A DNA stretch of 64,000 bases from Zingiber officinale (lineage: Eukaryota > Streptophyta > Magnoliopsida > Zingiberales > Zingiberaceae), in contig NC_056001.1 in NCBI RefSeq assembly GCF_018446385.1, positions 9,728,672 through 9,792,671 of the forward strand, in the 5' to 3' direction. The position numbers were made by a program, and so were the translations under genes. The notes beneath the pieces are model-generated. The model did not search any database. It saw nothing but the letters and a program-made list of their open reading frames with translations, and was not told the DNA's origin. Each line of letters begins with the position of its first letter. The stretch's first letter is position 1. Below are positions 33,055 through 64,000 of this stretch, one piece after another.

Positions 33055-33066
33055 TGGTATCAGAGC
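33055..33066 (+). other. primer-binding site, tRNA-iMet type
   Basis: TGGTATCAGAGC, two bases after the LTR, is the standard copia primer site. Confidence 0.95.
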
Positions 33067-33117: not shown

Positions 33118-34770
33118 ATGGAGTCGGAGGGACCTCTCGGATGGGACATCCGAATCCCACCTCCATACGAGCGCGAGGACTTCGACTATTGGAGGAAGCG
33201 CATGGAGATGTGGTTCCAAATGAATTGGGACCAATGGATTGCGTTGGAGGAACCGTTTAAAACTCCAACTGACAAGAAGGGAAAACGTCTCCGACATCGA
33301 TATTGGACCAAGGAGCAAAGGGAGCAATCAGAGACGGACAAGGAGGTAACTAGAATTTTAATTAATTTATTACCTCCTAATGCGATATTGAATGTAGGTG
33401 AATACGAGAATGCAAGTGACCTTTGGAAAAAGGTAATTGCGCTTCATGAGAGTCCTACACAAATCCAAGAAGAGGAGGAACCCAAGGAGAAGGACTCATT
33501 GGTCCAAGAAGAGAAGGACCAATCGAATGTTGACACGAGCTCAACATCCGAGGAGGAGAAGGAAGATGAGGATGTATCATCCACATCTTCAAGGGAGGAA
33601 GAAGTGGAACCATCCACATCTTCAAGTGAAGAGGAAGAAGAGCAATCCAAGGAAGAGGAGATCTTGGAAGCTCAACCCTCCACCTCAACTACCAAGAAGA
33701 GCAAAAAGGACCACATCAAATGCTTTGAGTGTGGTAAGATGGGGCACTACAAGAGTAGGTGTCCTTCGCTCAAGAAGGTAAAGGAAGTAAACCCTAAACT
33801 CACTAAAGTTAATTTAGAAACTAATGTGAGTTGTAGGAAGAAGAAGGAGAAGAAGCACATTAGGTGCTTTACATGTGGTGAGTGGGGTCACTACCACACA
33901 AAGTGCCCAAGGAGAGGAGAGCTCAAGAAATTGGCGCACTTGAAGAAATGGGAAAAGAAGAGGAGCACAAGTCAAGGGGGAGCTTCAAAGGTAAAAGGGA
34001 AGGTAATCCCTATTTTGAAGCTTGATCCAAGCTCTAATTCTTATATGCTTGTTAGAAATAATGTAGATTATTTACCCAAGCATAATCATGGATTTAGGTA
34101 TAATGATAGGAATAGGGTTAACACGGTAGATAACCCTAAGAAATCATACACTAAGGGTAGACCTATTAAGACCCAAACCACTTTGCCTAAGGGAAGGAAA
34201 GTGGGTGAAAACCTAAGCATTAATCCCAAGAAAGGGAGACATATGCCTAGGAAGGTGGGTAGGTCTAGGCATGTCCAAGGTGGACATGTTGACTTTAGGG
34301 TTAGAACCCTAGAATTAGAAAATCAAGTCTTGAAGGGAAAGCTTGAGGAAATGGAGAAAGTCCTAGAGAGGTTCATTATTGGACCTAAAGGACTTGACAT
34401 GTATTTGGGTAGTCAAAAACCTAAAAATGTCAAATTAGGTCCCTCCAAGACCAAAAAGAGGTCAAGTGCTAAGGTAGCACATGACATTGGTAAGGGAGGT
34501 GTGACCAAGGATAAGGGAGAGTCATCTAAGGCCAATAAGAAGGAATATTCTAGGGTGGCATATAATTATGGCAAGGATGGGATGCCCAAGGTTAAGGACA
34601 AGAAGAAATTAACCAAAGACAATGTGTCTAAGGTTAAGAAGGTGAGTTTTGTAGGCCAAGTGTCACCCGAGGTGCACCGAAGTGACCTAGCCATAGTGGA
34701 TGAATCACCAAGGGAGGTGACTAAGGTTAAGATTCCTAAGGTTAGGAAGAGCCTTTGGGACCCATGGTAG
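33118..34770 (+). CDS. retrotransposon Gag polyprotein, two CCHC knuckles
   Basis: This is an intact 550-codon frame starting 51 bp after the primer site. The N-terminal part (about 1-120) is of the copia Gag type (YEREDFDYWRKRMEMWF; LINLLPPNAI; ASDLWKKV). A long acidic Ser/Glu region follows (about 115-190). Two zinc knuckles are complete: CFECGKMGHYKSRC and CFTCGEWGHYHTKC (about residues 201-215 and 249-262). The C-terminal half is Lys-rich and basic, suited to RNA binding. In the parent family Gag forms particles with element RNA in the cytoplasm. The open frame with no pol suggests selection or youth. Confidence 0.92.
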   Translation: MESEGPLGWDIRIPPPYEREDFDYWRKRMEMWFQMNWDQWIALEEPFKTPTDKKGKRLRHRYWTKEQREQSETDKEVTRILINLLPPNAILNVGEYENASDLWKKVIALHESPTQIQEEEEPKEKDSLVQEEKDQSNVDTSSTSEEEKEDEDVSSTSSREEEVEPSTSSSEEEEEQSKEEEILEAQPSTSTTKKSKKDHIKCFECGKMGHYKSRCPSLKKVKEVNPKLTKVNLETNVSCRKKKEKKHIRCFTCGEWGHYHTKCPRRGELKKLAHLKKWEKKRSTSQGGASKVKGKVIPILKLDPSSNSYMLVRNNVDYLPKHNHGFRYNDRNRVNTVDNPKKSYTKGRPIKTQTTLPKGRKVGENLSINPKKGRHMPRKVGRSRHVQGGHVDFRVRTLELENQVLKGKLEEMEKVLERFIIGPKGLDMYLGSQKPKNVKLGPSKTKKRSSAKVAHDIGKGGVTKDKGESSKANKKEYSRVAYNYGKDGMPKVKDKKKLTKDNVSKVKKVSFVGQVSPEVHRSDLAIVDESPREVTKVKIPKVRKSLWDPW

Positions 34771-35194: not shown

Positions 35195-35400
35195 TAGGGT
35201 ACCAGTCGACTGGTACAGATACCAGTCGACTGGTAACAGTGTTTTTGAGCACAGAATGTTTCTGTAAGCTCATTTTGTCGATACCAGTCGACTGGTGCCG
35301 ATACCAGTCGACTGGTAACAGTAGATTTCGACCACAGAATGTTTCTGTGAGGTTCTGTCGAAGGGGGCAGTCGACTGGTACCTAGTTCAGTCGACTGATA
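35195..35400. repeat. three pairs of CAGTCGACTG palindromes, 20-bp spacing
   Basis: ACCAGTCGACTGGT occurs at 35201 and 35221, then at 35283 and 35303. A shorter CAGTCGACTG pair starts at 35368 and 35388. In every pair the starts are exactly 20 bp apart. The pairs alternate with a GTTTCTGT-containing spacer. They lie between gag and the 3' LTR. Confidence 0.93.
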
Positions 35401-35544
35401 CCAGCCTAAAAGTGTTTTTCGACATTGTTCTTGACCGTGTCAACTCGTTTAAATGTATGAGATCAATGGGGGATAAATACATGAGTTTAGGGTCAATTTG
35501 GATGACATGTTTTCAACAATTGGGATATTTGGAGCTCTTTTTGA

Positions 35545-51269: not shown

Positions 51270-52100
51270 GACGTTTTCTGATTTCAATCGATTGGGAAGG
51301 TTCCCAATCTATTGGGAGTCGCGAATTCATGAACAGAAGCAACTCGAATCGATCGCTTGATCGATTGGTGTTTACCAATCGATTGACATAAGGTTGGATC
51401 GATTGGGATGCTCAAGTTCGCAAACAGAACGGCTCTAAATCGATCGGTTAATCGATTGGTCTTCACCAATCGATTGGCATGAGGAATCAATTGATTCGGA
51501 CTGCAGTTCATGACAAGAATCATTCTAGATCGATCGGCTGATCGATTGGGGTCACCAATCGATCAGTCAATCGATTGAAAGTTGAAGGAATCAAACAGAA
51601 AGCTCCTGGATCGATCGACTAATCGATTGGGGTCACCAATCGATCAGCCAATCGATTGAAGTTAGAAAGAATCAAACAGAAAGCTCCTGGATCAATCAAT
51701 TGATCGATTGGGGTTACCAATCGATCGGCTAATCGATTGAAATTGGGAGAAGCCAACAGAGAGCTTCTGGATCGATCGACTAATCGATTGAAATTGGGAG
51801 AAGCCAACAGAGAGCTTCTGGATCGATCGACTAATCGATTGGATTTCATCAATCGATCAGCCAATCGATTGGAGTTCACTAGGTTGTCCACAGAAGGTTT
51901 CTGAATCGATCGGCTAATCGATTGACGTTGGTCAATCGATCAACTGATCGATTGGGGTGGATGAACAAGCGAACAGAAGCTTTCTGGATCGATCAATGGA
52001 TCGATTCATGTATGTTCAATCGATTGACACAGTGTGAATCGATTCACATCCATTCTTGATCAATTAAAAGGGTGTAAATCAATTGATATCCAATATCAAT
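51270..52100. repeat. array of ATCGAT hairpin units in the 5' leader
   Basis: About nine units of roughly 50-95 bp begin with (A)ACAGA.AG..T..TGG followed by ATCGATCG. Most contain ATCGATTGG, a 4-8-base loop and CCAATCGAT. Between primer site and gag, the palindrome CAATCGATTG or its half sites occur more than thirty times. Open frames across it on the minus strand are a consequence of the repeat. Confidence 0.92.
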
Positions 52101-53543: not shown

Positions 53544-54486
53544 TGTTGGACCCCGTGGTTGTTTTGATGTGATCAACCAAGTTAGGTTAGGTCATGCTTG
53601 TTATTTGATCCCTGTGTCTAAGTGTACAGGAGCTTAGGAGAACAAGAAGTCGAACGGAAGACGCAGCTAGCGAGAAGGACGACACGGGAAGGGAGCCGAC
53701 GGGTTTAGTGCGTCCGAAGGACGAGAGAGCTGCGGAAGAGTACACCGGTGGACGAGAAGAACATGCACGGCGTTCGAGAGACGAGAAGCCGGGTCGGAAG
53801 CCTGCTCGAGGAGAAGGTCAGAAATTGAGTTCGGGTGAGCCCTATTTCAGTTGGCCACAATCACCCAAGCAATCGGAGCCTCGAAAGAAGAAAATAAGTC
53901 AAAAGGAACTGGAAAAGCTAGTTGGAGGCACCTTCAACGAAGTGCTGAAGGCGCCTGCGCCGCTTGCAGACTTGGAGGTGCCTTCATTGCCTTGGAGGCG
54001 CCCTCAACCTTGTCCAGGGCACCTTCAAGGCCATTAGAGGCGCCTTCGACCTGGCCAAAGTGGCAATTTGTAATCGGATAGAGTTTTATTCGGTCAAATC
54101 CCTTGGAGGCGCCCTCAACCCCTTTGGAGACGTTCTCAAGACTCGAGATAGAGTTTCCAAGAGCTATATAAAGGCCCCTGGAGCTAGGAAATCCATGTAT
54201 CAACTAAGTATTCAATTCATAGCAACTTGTAAGAGCTTTTAGTGTGTAAAAGGCTTATCTGCCTTTAGAGAATGAGACTTTCTTAGTATGCATGTTCAAC
54301 CGTCTTGGTTTAACAACCTTCTTGGTTGTAACCAAGTCACATTGTTGAGTTCCTTTCTCTCTTTTCTGTTAGTCGATTTTGCTTTTACTATTATTGCACT
54401 ATTTTAGAGTTGAAAGTTTTGAGGAGAGTATTTTTATTTTACAGGCAATTCACCCCTCCCCTTTTGCCTGCCCCGCTGCATCAACA
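53544..54486 (+). mobile_element. solo LTR, SIRE-like, TSD TACAG
   Basis: TACAG lies at 53539-53543 and 54487-54491. The insert starts TGTTGGACCCCG and ends GCATCAACA. The near-terminal TTCACCCCTCCCCTTTTGCC resembles the 3' ends of the other SIRE-like LTRs here, giving + orientation. It holds an array of GGAGGCGCC(T/C)TC motifs (53915-54140). It formed by LTR-LTR recombination and separates gag from protease of the host element. Confidence 0.92.
53915..54140. repeat. array of GGCGCC-centred motifs in the solo LTR
   Basis: About eight variants of (G/A)GAGGCGCC(T/C)TCAA are spaced irregularly at 15-45 bp. Examples are GGAGGCACCTTCAA, GAAGGCGCCTGC, GGAGGCGCCCTCAACC (twice) and AGAGGCGCCTTCGACC. 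Centres are dyad-symmetric. Confidence 0.85.
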
Positions 54487-54491
54487 TACAG

Positions 54492-56732
54492 TACCTAATA
54501 ACACTTGGTTGATAGATACTGGTGCAACTACTCACATAAGTGAAACTATGCAGGGTTACCTCACGAGTCGAATGCTAATTGATGCCGAAAGATTCATCTA
54601 TACCGGAACGGGCAAGAAGACAAAAGTAGAGGCAATAGGTGTCTTTAGAGTTTGTTTGGGGAACAATGCACTTTTAAATTTGAAAAATACATTTGTAGTG
54701 TCGTCTTTTAAACGAAACTTAATTTCTATTTCATGTATGGACAAATTCGGACACACTTGTTCATTTGGAAATGGAAAGTTTAGTATTTTTTGAAATTCCA
54801 TTTTATGTGGTACTGGTTCCTTGATTGACAAGCTATATAGATTAGACACTGAAACTCATACGGATAATTTTGTGATGCATAGTATAGGTGCGAAGCGTGG
54901 TGTGACAAATGAGAATTCATCCAGGTTATGGCATATGCATTTAGGACATATCTCTAAACAATGCCTAGAAAGGTTAATGTCACTAGGAATTCTCAATTCT
55001 CTTGATATGTCAAATTTTGGAATCTGCATAGAGTGTATCAAGGGGAAAACAACTAACAAAAGTAATAAGGGCTCAATGCGGAGTAATAGAGTCTTGAAGC
55101 TTATATATATAGATATATGTGGACCATTCTCTAAGGTTTCTTGGAATGATCAATCATACTTTATAAGCTTTATAGATGATTATTCTCGATATGGATACTT
55201 GTATCTTATTTATGAGAAGTCGCAATCCCTGAACATGTTCAAAACCTTCAAAGTCGAAGTTGAAAATCAACTTGGTAAGAAGATTAAGGCCGTAAGATTA
55301 GACCGTGATGGTGAATACAATGGTAGGTCTGACGGATCAGGTGAACAACGTCCTGGGCCTTTTGCAGATTACCTTGCTAAGTGCGATATCGTAGTGCAAC
55401 ACACTATGCCTGGGGCACCTCAGCAGAATGGTGCAGCAGAGCAACGAAACCGAACCCTCAAGGGCATAGTGAGAAGTATGATTGCATTTTCCTCTCTACC
55501 GGAATCCTTGTGGGGTAAAGCACGCAAAACTGTAGTTTACCTATTCAACAGAATTCCTAGTAAGATAGTAACAAAAATCTCATACGAGTAATGGACAGGT
55601 AGAGCACCTAGTCTTAAGCATCTACATGTCTGGGGTTGTCCAGCTGAAGCTAGGCCCTATAAGACTAATGAAAGGAAATTGGACTCAATAACTGTTAGTT
55701 GTCATTTTGTAGGATACTCTGAAAACTCAAGAGGTTTCAAGTTCTATAACCTCTTGAGTAGATCCTTTTTCAAGACGAGTAAGGCCAAATTCATTGAGAA
55801 TGGTGGGAGTGATAAAGTTAGGGAAATATCATTTGAAAAAAACATTAGTAATCTTAATATGGTAACTACTAATGCAACTGATAGTGAAATGGTTCACATT
55901 CTACATATAGTTGAAGTTGCACAACCGGAAGGGGTAGTTGGCCATGATATTCTCATGCCACCTCCAATTCATTTGGAAGGTACATCATCTCAAATAGAGG
56001 AATTCCCTCCTATGGTTGAGAATGCCTCCCAACCACCTCAAGATCAAGTGCCACCAAAAAGATCCATTAGGGAGAGGAGATCAACGATGTCTCGTGATTA
56101 TGTTTATCTCCAAGAGCATGAGTTTGACATTGGGTTAGAATATGATCCCATATCATTCCAAGAAGTCAAACAATGCTCTCATCAAAAAAAATGGATCAAT
56201 GCCATGAAGGAAGAGATGAAGTCTATGGCAGACAACGACGTTTGGGAACTTGTAGAATTGCCTGAAGGTGTGAAACCCGTTGGTTATAAATGAATATTTA
56301 AAACCAAACGGGATTCACATGACAATGCCGAAAAGTATAAGACACGCATAATCACCAAGGGATTCACTCAAAAGGAGGACATTGATTACAAGGAGACTTT
56401 TTTTGTCGGTTTTGACGAAAGACTCCCTTAGGGTAATCATGGCACTTGTACGTCATTATGATCTTGAGCTACACCAAATGGACGTTAAGACTGTGTTTCT
56501 CAATGGAAACATTGAAGAGACTATATAAATGGTGCAATCGGAGAATTTTGAGTCGGATGACTCAAAGCACCTAATATGTAAACTAAGAAAGTCCATTTAT
56601 GGTTTGAAGCAGACATCTCGTCAGTAGTATCGAAAGTTTGATCAAGTGGTTTCTTTATATGGTTCCAAAGGGAATCCAGTTGATCAATGTTTATATATCA
56701 AGTTCAGTAGGAGCAAGTTCATTGTGTAGGAC
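54492..56732 (+). pseudogene. copia pol remnant: protease, integrase, partial RT
   Basis: Protease active site: IDTGATTHIS (about 54511-54540). The gag-pre-integrase zinc motif is visible as HLGH with CIECIKGK (about 54935-55047). Integrase follows with DICGPF (first D), DRDGEY (second D) and NGAAEQRNR (the E), from 55108 to 55455. A TAA interrupts at 55589-55591. A second open stretch (55679-56293) covers the C-terminal integrase and the start of RT (WINAMKEEMKSM; VWELVELPEGVKPVG). Further stops and shifts follow to 56732, including LYGFKQTSRQ. Non-functional. Confidence 0.88.
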
Positions 56733-57792
56733 TGTTAGATTCGATAGAGGGGGGGGGTGAATATCGATTCGAAAAGTCGAGTAAAAATACGCAGCGGAAA
56801 AGTAAATGAACACAGTTGTTTTTACTTCGTTCGGAGCCTGTGACGACTCCTACTCGAAGGCCCGTGGTCCTTGACCACTTTCGTTGGGCAATCACTAACA
56901 ATTCGAATATAATTACAAAATGAATACAGGGAATGCTAGTGAAACAAAGTAATACCGACAAGAAAATTAACTAAAAACCGAAGGAGCACTTTGTCGGAGC
57001 TTTGTTGGCGTCGCAGTAGAGCAGCAGGACCAACAATAGAAGAGTTCTCAGATTGATGATTGATTATCTGAAGCTCCTGCCTGGGGCTTCTTTTATATGT
57101 TGCTCCGGGCACCTGGATTCCTTCCGGGCGCCTGGAATGTGACGTAGCTGCTCAAACCGTGATGCTCCACGTGGCGACGATTTGGCTGGATATAATTTGC
57201 CTTCCGAGCGTCCGGACCACCTTGTTCCAGAAAACTCCCTTTTCCTGCAAAACAAAGTTAGTCCGAGGCAATATATATCCTGCAAGATAGATTGTTAGCA
57301 CATTTTATAATAGTATGAATTAGCACAAATAGTATGACTTAGATTCCGTCTTTCCGAGACCGGAATCTAGTCACGATCTCGACTTAGATATCCGAAATGG
57401 ATCTAAGCCGGATCGACGCCTAATGTTCCCTTCCCGGGAACGCGTCCTCGCAGTCACTCCCCTCCAGTGACTTACCTCACTTACCTGCCAGACGTCCGGT
57501 CAGCCCGTCGACCCGTCTGGACTTCTCGCCAAGCGTCCGGTCAGCCCGTCGACCCGCTTGGACTTCTCGCCAAGCGTCCGGTCAGCCCGTCGACCCGCTT
57601 GGACTTCTCGCCAGCTATCCGGTCAGCCCGTCGACCTAGCTGGACTTCGTGCCAGACATCCGGTCAGCCCGTCGACCTGTCTGGACTTCTCCTGCACACT
57701 CGATCAAAGTGTCAGATAACAACAAAACTAACTTAACCTATTTGTCATTCATCAAAACCTAGGTTAGACCGTTAGTGCTACCCGCACCAACA
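56733..57792 (-). repeat. 3' LTR of a minus-strand SIRE-like element
   Basis: On the minus strand it starts TGTTGGTGCGGG and ends ATTCACCCCCCCCTCTATCG...TCTAACA. The same CACCCCCCCTCT end occurs in the LTRs at 33052 and 36849. The adjacent 15 bases (57793-57807) are a purine tract identical to that of the gag-only element. The other LTR would lie to the right, beyond the window. Confidence 0.85.
57488..57684. repeat. five 41-bp units with covarying stems
   Basis: Unit starts are 57488, 57529, 57570, 57611 and 57652. Each has a 7-bp left arm, the near-constant loop TCCGGTCAGCCCGTCGACC, and a 7-bp right arm. Arms are CCAGACG/CGTCTGG, CCAAGCG/CGCTTGG (twice), CCAGCTA/TAGCTGG and CCAGACA/TGTCTGG. 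All are perfectly complementary. The loop has its own GGTC/GACC pairing. A spacer ACTTC(T/G)(C/T)G(C) follows each of the first four. Confidence 0.96.
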
Positions 57793-57807
57793 ATCTCCCC
57801 CTTTTTG
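57793..57807 (-). other. polypurine tract of the minus-strand element
   Basis: The minus strand reads CAAAAAGGGGGAGAT immediately before the LTR. It is the same 15 bases as at 35821-35835. Confidence 0.88.
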
Positions 57808-59689
57808 ATGGAATGACAACCTGGTTAAGTTAGTGAAAGAACGCAAAAACAGGTACATCGGTTTTAAAGTTAGTTTTAGTGTTTTCAATTTGGTTTATCT
57901 AACTTAACCGCCTAACCCTCCCCCTTTGGCATTCATAAAAAAAAACAAGGGTAAATAAGCATAGTGTAGAGTTACTGTAAAAATTTGTAAATTTAAGAGA
58001 CAGCTAAAAAAGATACTGATAAAAGTACAATTTTTTAAAACCAAGTTAAAAATAGTTAAGTTGACTTGGGGGATTTTAAACTTTTGAAAACTTGTTTAAA
58101 GTATTATCTTTTAGCTAAGTGTAGATAGTCTAATTTTCAAGCATAAGTGTATAAGTTCTAAATTTCAAGATCAAGTTTTAAATTTTCAAAACAGATTTCA
58201 ACTTTGAAACGCTTTTCAAACATAAGTTTTCAAAATCAAAATTCCAACATTAAGTTTGAAAAATCTATTTTTCAAAACTAATTGAAATTTATTTTTCAAC
58301 ACTAGGTTTGTAAAAGATTCAATTTTCAAAATTAAGGAAAATGATTTTGAGAAGTTTAGTTTGTGAACTTAAGTTTTGAAAAATCTAATTTCCACAATTT
58401 TCAATAACAAAGCAATTTTTTTTTAAAACTAATTTTTGTAAAATTTAACTTTCAAATCAAATTGTCAAAATTAAGTAAAATCAAATTTTAAGAACTAGAT
58501 TTTTAAATTTCAAGTGTAGATAGTCTAATTTTCAAAATCAATTTTCAATAAAAAGTAAAGCCCAATTCTTAAAAACAACTTAGTTTTATAAGAGTTAGTT
58601 TTCAAAAGAAATTTTTAAGAAAACATTTTTCAAACACAAATTTTAAAATATTTTAAATAAAGGGAAAAGTTTAATTAATTTCTCCCCCTGAACCTAACAT
58701 AAAATTTTGAAAATATATGCTAAAAATATTCAAAGTAAATTTTTTTTTTAAAAATGAGGTAGAATTTTCTAGAGAGATTTTAAAGAGAAGATTAAAAAAT
58801 AACGCTTAAGGAGATAATTAAAAAATAAACCTCCCTCTGAATTTGATATTCCTTTAATTTATTAATCCTCCTTATTTATTAATTTTTCTAGAGGATTAAA
58901 AAAAATTGAACCTCCCCCCCTGAATTGGTTACTCCCCTTAATTTAATATCTCCCCTTTAATACTAAGGTTTGGTTGTGTTAAATTTCAAAGCCCTAACAC
59001 ATTTGTCTAATTTAGTAATACATATATTATTATCTCTGTATCCTTGGTATAACTGTTTATTTGAATTTGATTAATCAATTATTAATTAATTTTAGATTCA
59101 GGTGCTTAACTTTAGTTTAAGGTTAAATAAGATAAGATTTTATTAATTCAATAACAGTTAAGCAATATCAAAAATTTATTGATTAGTTTTTACTTGATTT
59201 AATAATTTAATACTTAGTGAAATAATTTAAATTTCATATTGCTTATTGAGTTGGTCAATGGAAGTGTTAGTTATAATTATTATTATTATTTTTATTTATT
59301 TATTTAAATTTTTTTTTAAAGGGATTTCTAAAACAGCATTTAAAAGGAATTTAAAATGATTTTTATAATATGTTTTATGTCAATTAACATATGTTTGATT
59401 CAGTTTTGATTTTAGATTTAAATTAATATTAGTGGTTAATTTAAGTTTAAGTTTAATTTTAAGTTTAAGTTAAAATTTTTAATTTTAATTGTAATTTCAA
59501 TATTAAGTTTTAATTTAAGATTTAATTTTTAGTTAAGTTAAATTAAAAATTAATTTTAAGGTTAAACTGATGTTTAAGATAAAAAATGAGTTTAAAGTCA
59601 AAATAATAATTTTTAAAGTGAAAATAATCTATAGAAATAATTTATTATTACTATTTTTAAGTTAGCAAAATTTCATTATAGTGAAAAAA

Positions 59690-60700
59690 ATAAGAAGAAT
59701 TTTTCAAAATGATACATAATTTTTAAAATAGTTTTTAAAGAATTTTTAAAACAGTTTTTAAAGAATAATTTTTAAAGCATATTTAAAATAATTTTTAAAA
59801 TAGCTTTTAAAGAATTTTTAAAATAAATTTTTAAAGAATTTTTAAAATAGTTTTTAAAGAATTTTCAAAATAGATTTTAAAGAATTTTTAAAATAGTTTT
59901 TTTTTTAAAAAAAAAGAATTTTTAAAAGAGTTTTTAAAGGAATTTTTAAAAGAGTTTTTAAAGAATTTTTTAAAATAGTTTTTAAAGAATTTTTAAAAGA
60001 GTTTTTAAATAATTTTTAAAATAGTTTTTAAAGAATTTTTTTTTTCTAAATAGTTTTTAAAGAATTTTTAAAAGAGTTTTTAAAGAAATTTTTTTTAAAA
60101 AAATATTTTTTTTAAAGAATTTTTAAAATATTTTTTAAAGAATTTTTTTTTTAAAGACTTTTTAATGAATTTTTAAAATAATTTTTAAAAGAGTTTTTAA
60201 AGAATTTTTAAAAGAGTTTTTAAAATAGTTTTTAAAGATTTTTTTTTTTTAAAAGTTTTTAAAAGAATTTTTAAAAAAGTTTTTAAAGAATTTTTAAAAA
60301 AGTTTTTAAAAGAATTTTTTAAAAAAATTTTAAAGAATTTTTTAAATGATTTTTAAATGTTAAAAATATATTTTTTTTTAAAAAAAAATTTTAAAATAAG
60401 TTTTAAAAGAATTTTTAAAAGAAATTTTTTTTTAAAGGTTTTTTTTTAAAAAAAAAAAATTAAGTTAAAATAATTTTTAGGTTAAAATAAATTTTTAATT
60501 TAAAATCATTTTTAGGTTAAAATAAATAAAATTTTTAAGTAAAAAAAAATTAAGTTAAAATAAATTTTTAAGTTAAAAAAAATTAAGTTTTAAAATAAAT
60601 TTTTAAGTTAAAAAAATTAAGTTTTAAAATAAATTTTTAAGTTAAAAAAAATAAGTTTAATTTTTAAAATAGATTTTTAAAAAATTTAATTTTAATTAAT
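59690..60700. repeat. degenerate GAATTTTTAAAA / GTTTTTAAA array
   Basis: About 1 kb of alternating AGAATTTTTAAAA and TAGTTTTTAA words (period roughly 20-24 bp) is interrupted by homopolymer runs. TTTAAA dyads recur throughout. It probably arose by slippage. Confidence 0.85.
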
Positions 60701-61687
60701 TTTAATTTAATTTGAAATTCGAAATATAATTTTAATTTGAAATTCAAAATTTAATTTTAATTTCGTTTGAAAATTAATTAATTTAATCCTTATTCATCTC
60801 ACCCGATCTAGATTATGGGAATCTTATAATTTTGTGAGATGAATTAGATTTAATTACAGAGTTTGGTTTAACTTGTGTTAGATTCAGGTTTAGCTTTGGT
60901 CTCAACAAATAGGCATTCTTCGGATAAACTTCTAATCTTGGTGAGTCACTTGGACGTCATTAGAAGTAACCAACCTTTCGAGGTTTTCCGAATAGTCCTA
61001 TCCACGGAGCTTAGTATTAAACCTTGGTCTAACTAGTTAGGATCCAATTAAAGGTAGCTTCGGTCGGTTCCACTTGGCCAAATGCACCAGATTGAAGTCA
61101 TATCTTTCTAGACATGCGATGCCCAAGCTTCTCCAACGTACTATCATCAAAAAACTTCACCAGTACCATGATTCAAGTTAAACTTGAACCCTCTTTAACT
61201 AGTCCTAATTACCCTGTCGGGTAGGTTGGTTAGGGTTACCCTGTCGGGTAGGTTAGTTTTGGAGGTGCCAGCTAGTCTGGAGCCTCCCCTGAATTATTTG
61301 CCATAAATTTAAGATTTTTGTATAATTAGAGTTGGTTTTAGTTAAGTTTTAATGTTTAGTTTGTAATTTAAATTTAAGTTTTTAATTTTGAATTAATTAA
61401 ATTAGTCAAATTATCTTTCTTTAAGAGAGTGTATTTAATATTTGAATTTTCTTCCAATTTCAATTTTATTGGGTTAATTGAATTATCTTTCTTTAATAGC
61501 TTATTTTTAAAGTTTAAGTTTTTATTTATTTTTAAATTTGAATTAACTAAACTGTTTGAATTATATTTTCTTAACGGTTTATCTTTTAGCTTTTTATTAA
61601 TTGTTAATTTTGAAATTTCTAGATTATTTTTGTTTAATTTGTTATCTTTAACATTTAATTTTAAGTTTGTTAAATTCCGTTTTGATT

Positions 61688-62205
61688 TTATAAAGTGTTT
61701 GATTTTATCCTTTTATTTTCTTTGCCTTTTAAATTGATATGGTTAATTGAATTAGTTAGATTAGTTTTATCTTTAAAGTTTAAATTTTTATTAATTAAAT
61801 TATCTTGGTTTTGGATAGCATTTTCTAGACTGATTTTATCTTGATTATTAAATATTTTATCAAGGTATTTACTGATTTTATCCATTTTCTCATTTTTAGC
61901 ATTTAAATTCAAATTTATTTTAATGTTTGACTTATTTATGTCTAAATGCTCACCTAATTTTAAATTTTCTGAATTAATTAAATTATTTGAATTGATTTGG
62001 TCATTGTTCTGTTTGACCAAGTCAAGGTTGATGTCAAATTGATCAGAGTCCTGATTGACTTGATCAGAGTCTAGATTATTTTGTGATTTTGAATTTAAAT
62101 CATTTAAATCTAGATTATCATGCATCATACTTGGACTAATTTCATACTTATCATCATGCTGATTATTTAAGCTACTATTAGCAGGGGTATTTTGATAAAT
62201 ATTAC
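61688..62205 (-). CDS. Asn/Asp/Lys-rich open frame of unknown function
   Basis: The minus-strand frame remains open from 62251 to 61688 (187 codons), but its first about 15 codons come from the LTR at 62206, so the start is chimeric. The interior part is dominated by Asn, Asp, Lys, Leu and Ile with heptad-like spacing (e.g. DKISKYLDKIFNNQDKISLE). It might be a coiled-coil segment of the SIRE-like element or simply a consequence of AT-rich composition. I do not recognise it. Confidence 0.3.
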
Positions 62206-64000
62206 TGTCACGCCCCAGAGGAGTCCCTGTCCGAGAAAATTTCGGCAGCATCTCCCCTGTATGGTGGACAATCTGAAACTTTTCTACATCTCACAAATAC
62301 CTCAGCCACAGGCGGCTGGAATAACAACAGTAAATAAAATCAATCACCACGCAGTTTATATATGTATTCAGCCTCTGGCTGTCACAACCACGCAGTTAAT
62401 AAAAATAAACAACATAGTAATACTCTGACTCGAAATCAACCCTACTCAACTACACTCGTAAAGCCCAAATCCGATTTTTCTTACCTCTTCTGCCATCCAG
62501 GCAGGCATGTAGTAGAGTAAATCCAAATCATACTAAAAGTCCATCCAACGGAAAGATTCCATACAATATCCATATGTAAGTCCAAAACAAAACTAAAACA
62601 AAGTCTGATAGCGAAAAGCTAGAATGAAACAACAACTCAAAAAACCAGCAGAGGAGTAGCACTACGTGCAGTGGGGACTATCGACTGGAACTCCCTCCTG
62701 ACAGCATCAACCTGAAAATAACAACAATGGAGGCGGGGTGAGTCCAACACTCAGCAGGTACAATTGATATGCAAAGTAAAGAAATAACACCTAACACTAA
62801 TCATGCGTACAGTCTCCTGATATAAGAAAGATATAAATATGCATCTGAAGTAAACAGGAGAGAAACTGTACTAACCAGGACCTGAGTATAAGGACAAACA
62901 GTCCGAGTGGTATAGGAATCCTGTATGCATGTCAAACATAGGTATCCAAACAATATGCAGCATATAAATGCAACAACCACAAACACAAACAATAAATGCA
63001 TCATGCATATGATGCCAATGATGCGTCCTGGTCACCCCTGACGCCAGTCGATCATCTCATACAAAAGTGAGGCCGAGTGGGTAGGGCTGTGACAACCGTG
63101 CACTCTGTCGTCACTACTCCTGATGAGTGACCGAGTGGACGGGATGCTGTCGGAGTACACCTATCCTCCTACCCCAAATCATAAATGGGGGAGCGCAATG
63201 CTCTCATCTCCCGGTACTCAAAGACGGGGAGGAATCCCTGCCGGATAACACGTTGTGTCACACTACCCATGAGCGGACCAACGGTGCCTAACAGAGTCCC
63301 TGCTGCAACACACTCTGCCTGAATCGACCACTAACCCATGAGTGGTGGCGTGTGCAGATCCATGTAACTGGCGATGTGCTCAGCAATAATGGAGCGGACT
63401 ATCGCACAGCATGCAATCATGCAAATGATGCATGGCAATAACCATATAAACATCCTGACCTAATCCATATATATAGAAAAGTGCATCATAGGTCAACGAA
63501 TCCAAAACAATCCAAAGGTATACAGAAGGTATAAAACCTAGGTCCTGAACATGGTCAAGCATGGCATATCACTACCCCTATAAGCATGTATAGACAGGTA
63601 AAGTATACATGGGATGTAAAACAAATCAATCAATCAAACATGTACCAAGATTTGGGTAGTGATTAACCGGAATAGATAAGAAACATAATTAATGAAACAT
63701 GTTAATTCCATTACTAAGCATATCAAAGACAACAAAAGTCAAAAGTACCCGCCTCCAATAGAAATGGTCCAGTCCGACAAATCGAGATACTCGTCTCGCG
63801 TCAAGGTCCTGTATATCAAACATAATGTCTAGTTTAGCTATTTCTATCATACCACAATTAGCCAAACTACATTCTAATCCAATTTAATAAATTCTAAATT
63901 GGATCCAACTAATCCATCCAACACAATTAATGAACCCTAATCAACACATTAACCCTTGAGCATAAAACTCAAATCATGATCCATCATCTGAACAAACAAC
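62206..64000. mobile_element. LTR of a further element (probably Ty3/gypsy), runs off the end
   Basis: An abrupt junction at 62206 starts TGTCACGCCCCAGAGG, a common tip of chromovirus-type LTRs. The sequence changes from AT-rich to balanced composition. The phrase GGCGGGGTGAGTCCAACACT (about 62733-62752) and repeated CATGAGTGG/ATGAGTGACC words follow. No coding domain and no second boundary are in view, so orientation is undecided. Confidence 0.5.

Follow-up and report, generated by a model that had tools for sequence, protein, structure and literature searches.

Tandem bulged hairpins with covarying stems in the U3 region of a Sirevirus LTR family of Zingiber officinale

Introduction

Is the pairing of a row of hairpins in a plant LTR retrotransposon held as a structure, or are paired arms simply what remains when palindromic units are copied? 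The question is raised by five tandem units in a 64,000-nt stretch of the Zingiber officinale genome (the window; assembly GCF_018446385.1, NC_056001.1, positions 9,728,672 to 9,792,671), in which the loop is constant and the arms differ from unit to unit while matching within each. An original prediction, made from the letters of this stretch, held that the stem structure itself appears to be conserved.

The host element

Judged from its sequence marks, the array is hosted by the 3′ LTR of a SIRE/Maximus-type Sirevirus on the minus strand. The original prediction had placed it in a SIRE-like LTR, and the polypurine tract (PPT) octamer, the AT/TG site and further Sirevirus marks bear this out. 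The features of the LTR are as follows.

56725..57792, minus strand: 3′ LTR of a Sirevirus-type (SIRE) Ty1-copia element, ~1068 bp, U3 starting at 57792, with AGGGGGAG-AT/TG at its start and poly-C near its other end
57795..57802, minus strand: terminal PPT AGGGGGAG, then the AT/TG attachment site, identified by the sequence at the LTR start
57100..57219, minus strand: short imperfect GC-rich dyads beside the TATA box, read by eye, resembling published Sirevirus RM boxes
57090..57098, minus strand: TATA-like box ATATAAAAG, ~390 bp downstream of the array in the sense direction

The putative 3′ end of the LTR (56725) is placed by comparison with the CCTACA-AGTGG-TATCAGAGC junction of three related stretches, and the poly-C signal near this end starts at 56759 on the minus strand. 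Three exact copies of the PPT octamer AGGGGGAG occur within 1.5 kb, the terminal one and two more ahead of the 3′ LTR; the PPT/LTR junction is flanked by an inverted repeat (TTTGATGGAATGACAA versus TTTGATGAATGACAA). The 5′ LTR of the window copy falls outside the window, and the PBS mark is that of related stretches, where TATCAGAGC follows a poly-C stretch in three of the four searched, the fourth being only ~3 kb long. The terminal PPT octamer with AT/TG, multiple PPTs, the junction inverted repeat and the PBS are all marks of Sireviruses in the available text of the published description (PMC2829016).

Upstream of the LTR, three ORFs of at least 70 aa are present in 57800-64000, and a Pfam scan of the longest (187 aa), the sole ORF scanned, returned no match. 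AT-rich low-complexity tandem repeats fill much of 58000-62000, with no long ORF. The window copy may be non-autonomous or may have a very long linker; a copia gag fragment (PF14223) is found in one related stretch (L049). Immediately past the final hairpin the minus strand carries a consensus-like 5′ splice site at 57487 (CAG/GTAAGTGAGGTAAGT), and two 3′-splice-like TTGCAG/G sites lie ~200-230 nt beyond it, at 57290 and 57256. Among 37 related LTR copies, CAGGTAAG is present in 24, TTGCAGG in 29 and the TATA-like box in 27. By their sequence, these splice-like sites of U3 are a possible candidate intron.

Other mobile-element remains share the window. An array of ATCGAT-centred palindromes with a period near 81/51 (51347-52006) is close to the Tnd-1 RM box ACAATCGATTGT as given in the available text of PMC2829016, and is probably another Sirevirus-like LTR. 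A further palindromic array, of repeated ACCAGTCGACTGGT-type palindromes, lies at 35201-35404. Adjoining the hairpin LTR on the opposite (plus) strand, 54821-56293 contains Ty1-copia integrase-region fragments (gag_pre-integrs and SH3_retrovirus, with rve slightly under the curated cut-off), probably from a second, broken element. A 550-aa ORF with a CCHC zinc knuckle (33118-34770, plus strand), just past a TGGTATCAGAGC primer-binding-like site at 33055, is probably the gag of another copia element.

Five hairpins with one loop and four arm types

The five units recur with a period of 41 bp over 57488-57684, at LTR positions +108 to +304, the TATA-like box being at +695 of ~1068. In each of them the arms pair exactly over 7 bp.

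57652..57684, minus strand: hairpin unit of arm type A (sense CCAGACA...TGTCTGG), initial in sense order, 108 nt into the LTR
57611..57643, minus strand: hairpin unit of arm type B (sense CCAGCTA...TAGCTGG)
57570..57602, minus strand: hairpin unit of arm type C (sense CCAAGCG...CGCTTGG)
57529..57561, minus strand: hairpin unit of arm type C (sense CCAAGCG...CGCTTGG)
57488..57520, minus strand: hairpin unit of arm type D (sense CCAGACG...CGTCTGG), final in sense order

The 19-nt loop TCCGGTCAGCCCGTCGACC is identical in all five units. Allowing up to three mismatches, it has five matches in the 64,000-nt window, all within the array, against a maximum of 0 in 100 shuffles; the tandem-repeat score of the array is 284. 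Recomputation thus reproduced exactly the predicted five 41-bp units with a constant loop and matching arms. The predicted paired arm changes were confirmed within limits: every stem pairs and four of the seven stem positions vary, but the leading CCA of every arm is invariant and the five units represent four arm types (order on the minus strand A, B, C, C, D), not five.

The predicted fold of a unit consists of the 7-bp outer stem, a 3-nt GGA bulge on the 3′ side, an inner GGTC/GACC stem extended by G.U pairing, and a short loop, such that the "19-nt loop" itself contains the inner stem and the 3-nt bulge.

Copy number, array order and decay

In the genome (3,090,333,446 bases in 211 contigs) the exact loop TCCGGTCAGCCCGTCGACC has 41,825 occurrences, compared with 0 for its reversed control. 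With CC and GG ends required and the arms left free, 35,640 units were found. A hand count of the first 100 of these gave 34 perfect B, 29 C, 11 A and 9 D units, one compensated double change, and 16 units that are not fully Watson-Crick; these 16 include three clear arm-swap hybrids, and a fourth (D with A) that could equally be a point change. Sampled arrays are mostly ordered A-(BC)n-D, and neighbours share an arm type in 4 of 72 cases, where composition alone would give 20.5. This order looks like expansion in 82-bp dimers, and arm types are inherited.

Present-day copies do not hold their pairing. At pair 4 of B units the single forms G.U and A.C number 491 and 311, and the double form was found 18 times versus ~13 expected by independence (491 x 311 / ~12,100, where the total of perfect B units is scaled from the hand count of 34/100 to 35,640). 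Ongoing compensation in the genome is thus rejected at the one pair counted, and dead element copies appear to decay freely. As stated, the original prediction is not supported by present-day units, whose arms mutate independently, the finding that had been set beforehand as its refutation.

Given independent decay and inherited arm types, copy number is not independent evidence for a constraint on pairing, and the evidence rests on a few ancient arm types rather than on the five units. The free decay of dead copies leaves a constraint in the active lineage unrefuted.

The array is also not the sole hairpin site of its LTR. At 35 LTR-start sites, perfect hairpins of at least 6 bp outnumber those in block shuffles throughout the initial 1.3 kb (0.94-1.86 versus 0.21-0.41 per 100 nt), which makes the array part of a palindrome-rich LTR.

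A wider hairpin class and its covariation

Other Sirevirus-like LTRs of the same genome carry units with a 7-bp outer stem, an RGA bulge and a GGTC/GACC inner stem in which loops and stems differ, for example CCAAGTA-GGTCAAAGGGATTGACC-gga-TACTTGG. The pattern GTCC-N5-GGTCA-N3..9-TGACCGGA has 40,623 matches genome-wide, part of them mutated units of the window's own class, and 0 in the control. Around pattern matches we fetched 58 stretches, all from within the initial 9.9 Mb of contig C1 apart from the window itself, with 282 units, which were picked by their core and a CC or GG end, pairing not being a criterion. The forms of the inner stem are set by the search expression and their counts carry no evidential weight. 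By our own reading, five of the 17 units with GATC/GATC cores are false matches and not real units; the other 12 have a CCAGATG or TCAGATG arm.

The outer stem is perfect in 180 of the 282 units. Eight arm types have at least 10 copies, and for all eight the exact complement is the commonest partner; these types are separated by at least six paired changes, a minimum spanning tree giving 10. Five rarer 5′ arms (three copies each) lack the exact complement as commonest partner: a G.U form, a false unit, and three that look like decay or an inherited mismatch. All five outer pairs 3-7 are formed in 119 of 143 units, which are related by descent, compared with 0 of 50 chance IMG/VR matches of nearly the same core. 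A second tandem hairpin class, with the constant loop TGAGTGAAG and arms alternating between CCTAG and CCTGG, rarely CCCGG, was seen at L049 8711-8900 and L020 892-1340. Its forms CCTAG-TGAGTGAAG-CTAGG and CCTGG-TGAGTGAAG-CCAGG account for 60 and 58 of 165 units, and all five pairs are formed in 119 of the 165.

For covariation, a self-written R-scape-like test (not R-scape itself) was applied to 29 columns of 134 distinct units; it combines a G-test with average-product correction. The null was simulated on a FastTree tree, built from the same short unit sequences, with the parsimony changes per column kept equal; the way units were sampled conditions pairs o1 and o2. Of 406 column pairs, two reached E ≤0.05, both of them predicted stem pairs (o5, E 0.02; o7, E 0.01; 100 replicates), and with 300 replicates both stood at E 0.000. 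Pairs o6, o3, o4 and i2 rank 5th, 6th, 8th and 10th, above E 0.05; thus three of the five variable outer pairs (o3, o4 and o6) and every inner pair miss the threshold. Over the outer stem the scores add up to 357.8 when the arms are read in register, and no shifted register exceeds 35.0. When the window's class is taken by itself (79 rows), o5 and o7 have E 0.007 and 0.027, and in the other (beta-like) class by itself (55 rows) no pair reaches E 0.05, the best being o7 at E 0.057. Removal of the GATC-core units, false matches included, left 124 rows and both pairs at E 0.000.

Because the only significant column pairs are predicted stem pairs, pairing has probably been constrained or restored within the active Sirevirus lineage. 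Over the units collected, the covariation anticipated by the original prediction is thus found at two stem pairs with our own script, most stem pairs staying below threshold. Its claim that the stem is conserved as a structure gains from the tree-aware signal at o5 and o7, and not from the five units or their copy number, on which it had been built.

Which strand or molecule folds

The original prediction suggested that the hairpins may act in the element RNA. Since the arms are reverse complementary, neutral C>T change is expected to be equal on both sides, and an excess of G.U over A.C could be read as tolerance of G.U in RNA. The ratios are 491:311 in B units, 120:83 in C units and 40:16 in the second hairpin class. 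The loop control, an unpaired CpG in the same units, shows a sense C>T excess in the same direction (C>T versus G>A, 575:264) that the B and C ratios do not exceed, and RNA-specific selection via G.U tolerance was dropped as evidence. All of these counts, the control included, are inflated by variants common to LTR pairs and to neighbouring units. A local sample selected for at least four pairs is about even (21:28 and 14:11), and among unit sequences common to at least two stretches G.U exceeds A.C in numbers too small to count.

Folding was also predicted for both strands. Whole-array RNA folding is no better than shuffles in the sense strand (z -1.14), compared with z -3.61 in the antisense strand; single units are predicted to fold on both strands, as judged against mononucleotide shuffles only. 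Local outer-stem probabilities were computed for 34 arrays with at least three perfect units (21 of the window's class, 13 of the other). With RNA parameters the means for sense and antisense are 0.25 and 0.49 in the window's class and 0.70 and 0.93 in the other class, and with DNA parameters 0.51 and 0.79, and 0.87 and 0.91. The window's own array has 0.15 in sense and 0.42 in antisense. As predictions, these values make a simple array of sense-RNA hairpins less likely in the window's class and lean slightly towards the antisense strand or single-stranded cDNA. With G.U/A.C ratios of B and C units not above the loop control and a sense array that folds no better than shuffles, action in the element RNA, as originally proposed, gains no support from these tests.

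Relation to known palindromes and signals

Within the available text of Bousios et al. 2010 (PMC2829016), RM boxes are palindromic motifs of many copies that cluster within CpG islands of the upstream LTR half of Sireviruses, ahead of the TATA box; regulatory roles were suggested for them, and their clusters begin 200-400 bp after the junction. The window array likewise has many palindromic copies in the upper half of its LTR, upstream of the TATA-like box, and the published RM boxes CGGTCTGACCG and CGGTCGACCG also have a GGTC/GACC core. It lies nearer the LTR start (+108 to +304) than the published interval. In Table 3 of that paper, RM boxes have 10-20 bp, 0-4 intervening bases by our own reading, and one consensus per element, whereas the window array has 33-nt units with a bulge, a wide 19-nt interval containing an inner stem, four arm types, and outer arms that covary. 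Of the RM-type CGG-CCG core, units of the window's class have only a CGG-N5-CCG spanning loop and bulge (CGGGCTGACCG), out of the hairpin register, and the related GGTCAAAGGGATTGACCGGA core has no CGG ahead of its CCG. The window LTR also has its separate RM-like boxes, nearer the TATA box than the hairpins are, and boxes GGTCCGGGCGCCCGGA in related LTRs are similar to these dyads.

With no single short, closely spaced consensus, with CGG-CCG out of register and with RM-like boxes coexisting in the same LTR, the array is a distinct wide-loop, bulged variant of the known palindromic repeats of Sirevirus LTRs, with covarying stems. The original prediction knew of no described family with this exact array. 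Palindromic LTR repeats of Sireviruses are in fact described, and this particular hairpin does not appear in the available text of that description (PMC2829016). In a literature search over titles and the starts of abstracts, in which subscription papers are thinly covered, a description of the motif was not found among the matches listed. An Rfam covariance-model search of window positions 54000-61000 gave 0 matches at the curated score, and pattern scans of IMG/VR and GTDB gave single matches in 2, 50 and 10 contigs, read here as chance.

Two further systems invite comparison. Palindromes of maize Sirevirus LTRs with predicted strong secondary structure are reported to be hotspots of small-RNA mapping (Bousios et al. 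2016, via PMC10760457 and PMC5311732). They share with the window array the presence of LTR palindromes with predicted structure, but their motif (CACCGGACNNNGTCCGGTG, Copia elements) is different, and neither covarying arm types nor a bulged hairpin was found in the available portions of those sources. The kissing-loop dimerisation and packaging signals of Ty1 RNA are also structured RNA signals of a Ty1-copia-type element; in the accessible part of that account (PMC5454406) they sit at the RNA 5′ terminus, whereas the window array lies in U3 and, from the LTR layout, would be present only near the 3′ end of the genomic RNA.

What keeps the arms paired

The explanation that we place first, with about even confidence, takes the array for a tandem hairpin module with a conserved structure, seated in U3 of a Sirevirus LTR family. 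The outer 7-bp stem of such a unit would need pairing only, the GGTC/GACC inner stem would be conserved in its sequence, and the unit would be completed by a purine bulge of 3 nt (RGA) and a short loop rich in purines. Within the active element lineage a few hairpin types would have arisen and diverged through paired substitutions. The element would then have carried them along in arrays of the form A-(BC)n-D that grew and shrank in 41- and 82-bp steps; transposition would have produced the tens of thousands of unit copies, and in dead copies the module would now decay neutrally. The selected form would be a folded single strand (the genomic RNA 3′ end, an antisense transcript or minus-strand cDNA) that offers bulge and inner stem, unit after unit, to a binding partner. 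Recognition would probably fall on the constant parts, inner stem and RGA bulge, with the outer stem as scaffold.

Speaking for the module are the exact pairing of the five units, the loop (41,825 versus 0) and wider-class (40,623 versus 0) counts, the eight of eight arm types with the complement as main partner, the at least six paired changes, the pairing in 119/143 versus 0/50, the covariation at o5 and o7 that is lost in shifted registers, and the second class with its paired arm types. Against it stand independent decay, arm-swap hybrids, the values above E 0.05 for o3, o4, o6 and the inner pairs, G.U/A.C ratios in B and C units that do not exceed the loop control, the sense z of -1.14, the sense stem probability of 0.15 in the window, and the enrichment of perfect hairpins throughout the first 1.3 kb, beyond the array.

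Mutation alone could also maintain pairing without function, if a single strand folds back in the course of reverse transcription or replication, one arm then serving as template for the other (quasipalindrome correction). Stems would then stay perfect and drift together, the paired changes needing no selection, and the best prediction for the window's class, antisense hairpins with DNA parameters (mean 0.79 versus 0.25 for sense RNA, 21 arrays), fits minus-strand cDNA. We regard this as unlikely, as corrected double changes are without clear excess at the one pair counted, and fold-back copying fails to explain why the window's class conserves the sequence of inner stem, bulge and loop.

Two accounts are less probable still, to an equal degree. 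The units could be cis-regulatory dyads at the DNA level, inverted GGTC(A)/(T)GACC half-sites akin to RM boxes, with outer pairing as a by-product. Their position in U3 upstream of the TATA-like box, a CpG o/e of 1.18 in the array and 1.12 in the whole LTR, and a GGTC/GACC core resembling RM boxes such as CGGTCTGACCG in the available text of PMC2829016 would suit this account, but a protein reading double-stranded DNA would not need pairing, and the outer arms covary with free sequence. Pure inheritance, in which old palindromic units were duplicated and reshuffled and the paired arms are a founder effect without upkeep, accords with the handful of arm types, the A-(BC)n-D order with its scarce same-type neighbours, neutral unit decay and the mere two significant stem pairs, but sits poorly with at least six paired changes between eight arm types and with a tree-based null that, lacking a pairing constraint, fails to reproduce the top two pairs.

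Implications for Sirevirus biology

Going a step beyond the structure-conserved module, Sireviruses might carry an undescribed bulged-hairpin signal, active in a folded single strand (RNA 3′ end or minus-strand cDNA) and read by a protein of the element or the host that would recognise the GGTC/GACC stem together with the RGA bulge; we advance this joint reading tentatively, as a speculation that may well be wrong. If it is true, unlike stems in neighbouring units would let each hairpin fold independently. The outer arms conserve pairing and not sequence, which argues for a folded form. The motif also offers a simple handle for finding similar arrays in other plant genomes. It poses a testable question, namely why abundant retrotransposons would keep hairpins that may expose them to silencing.
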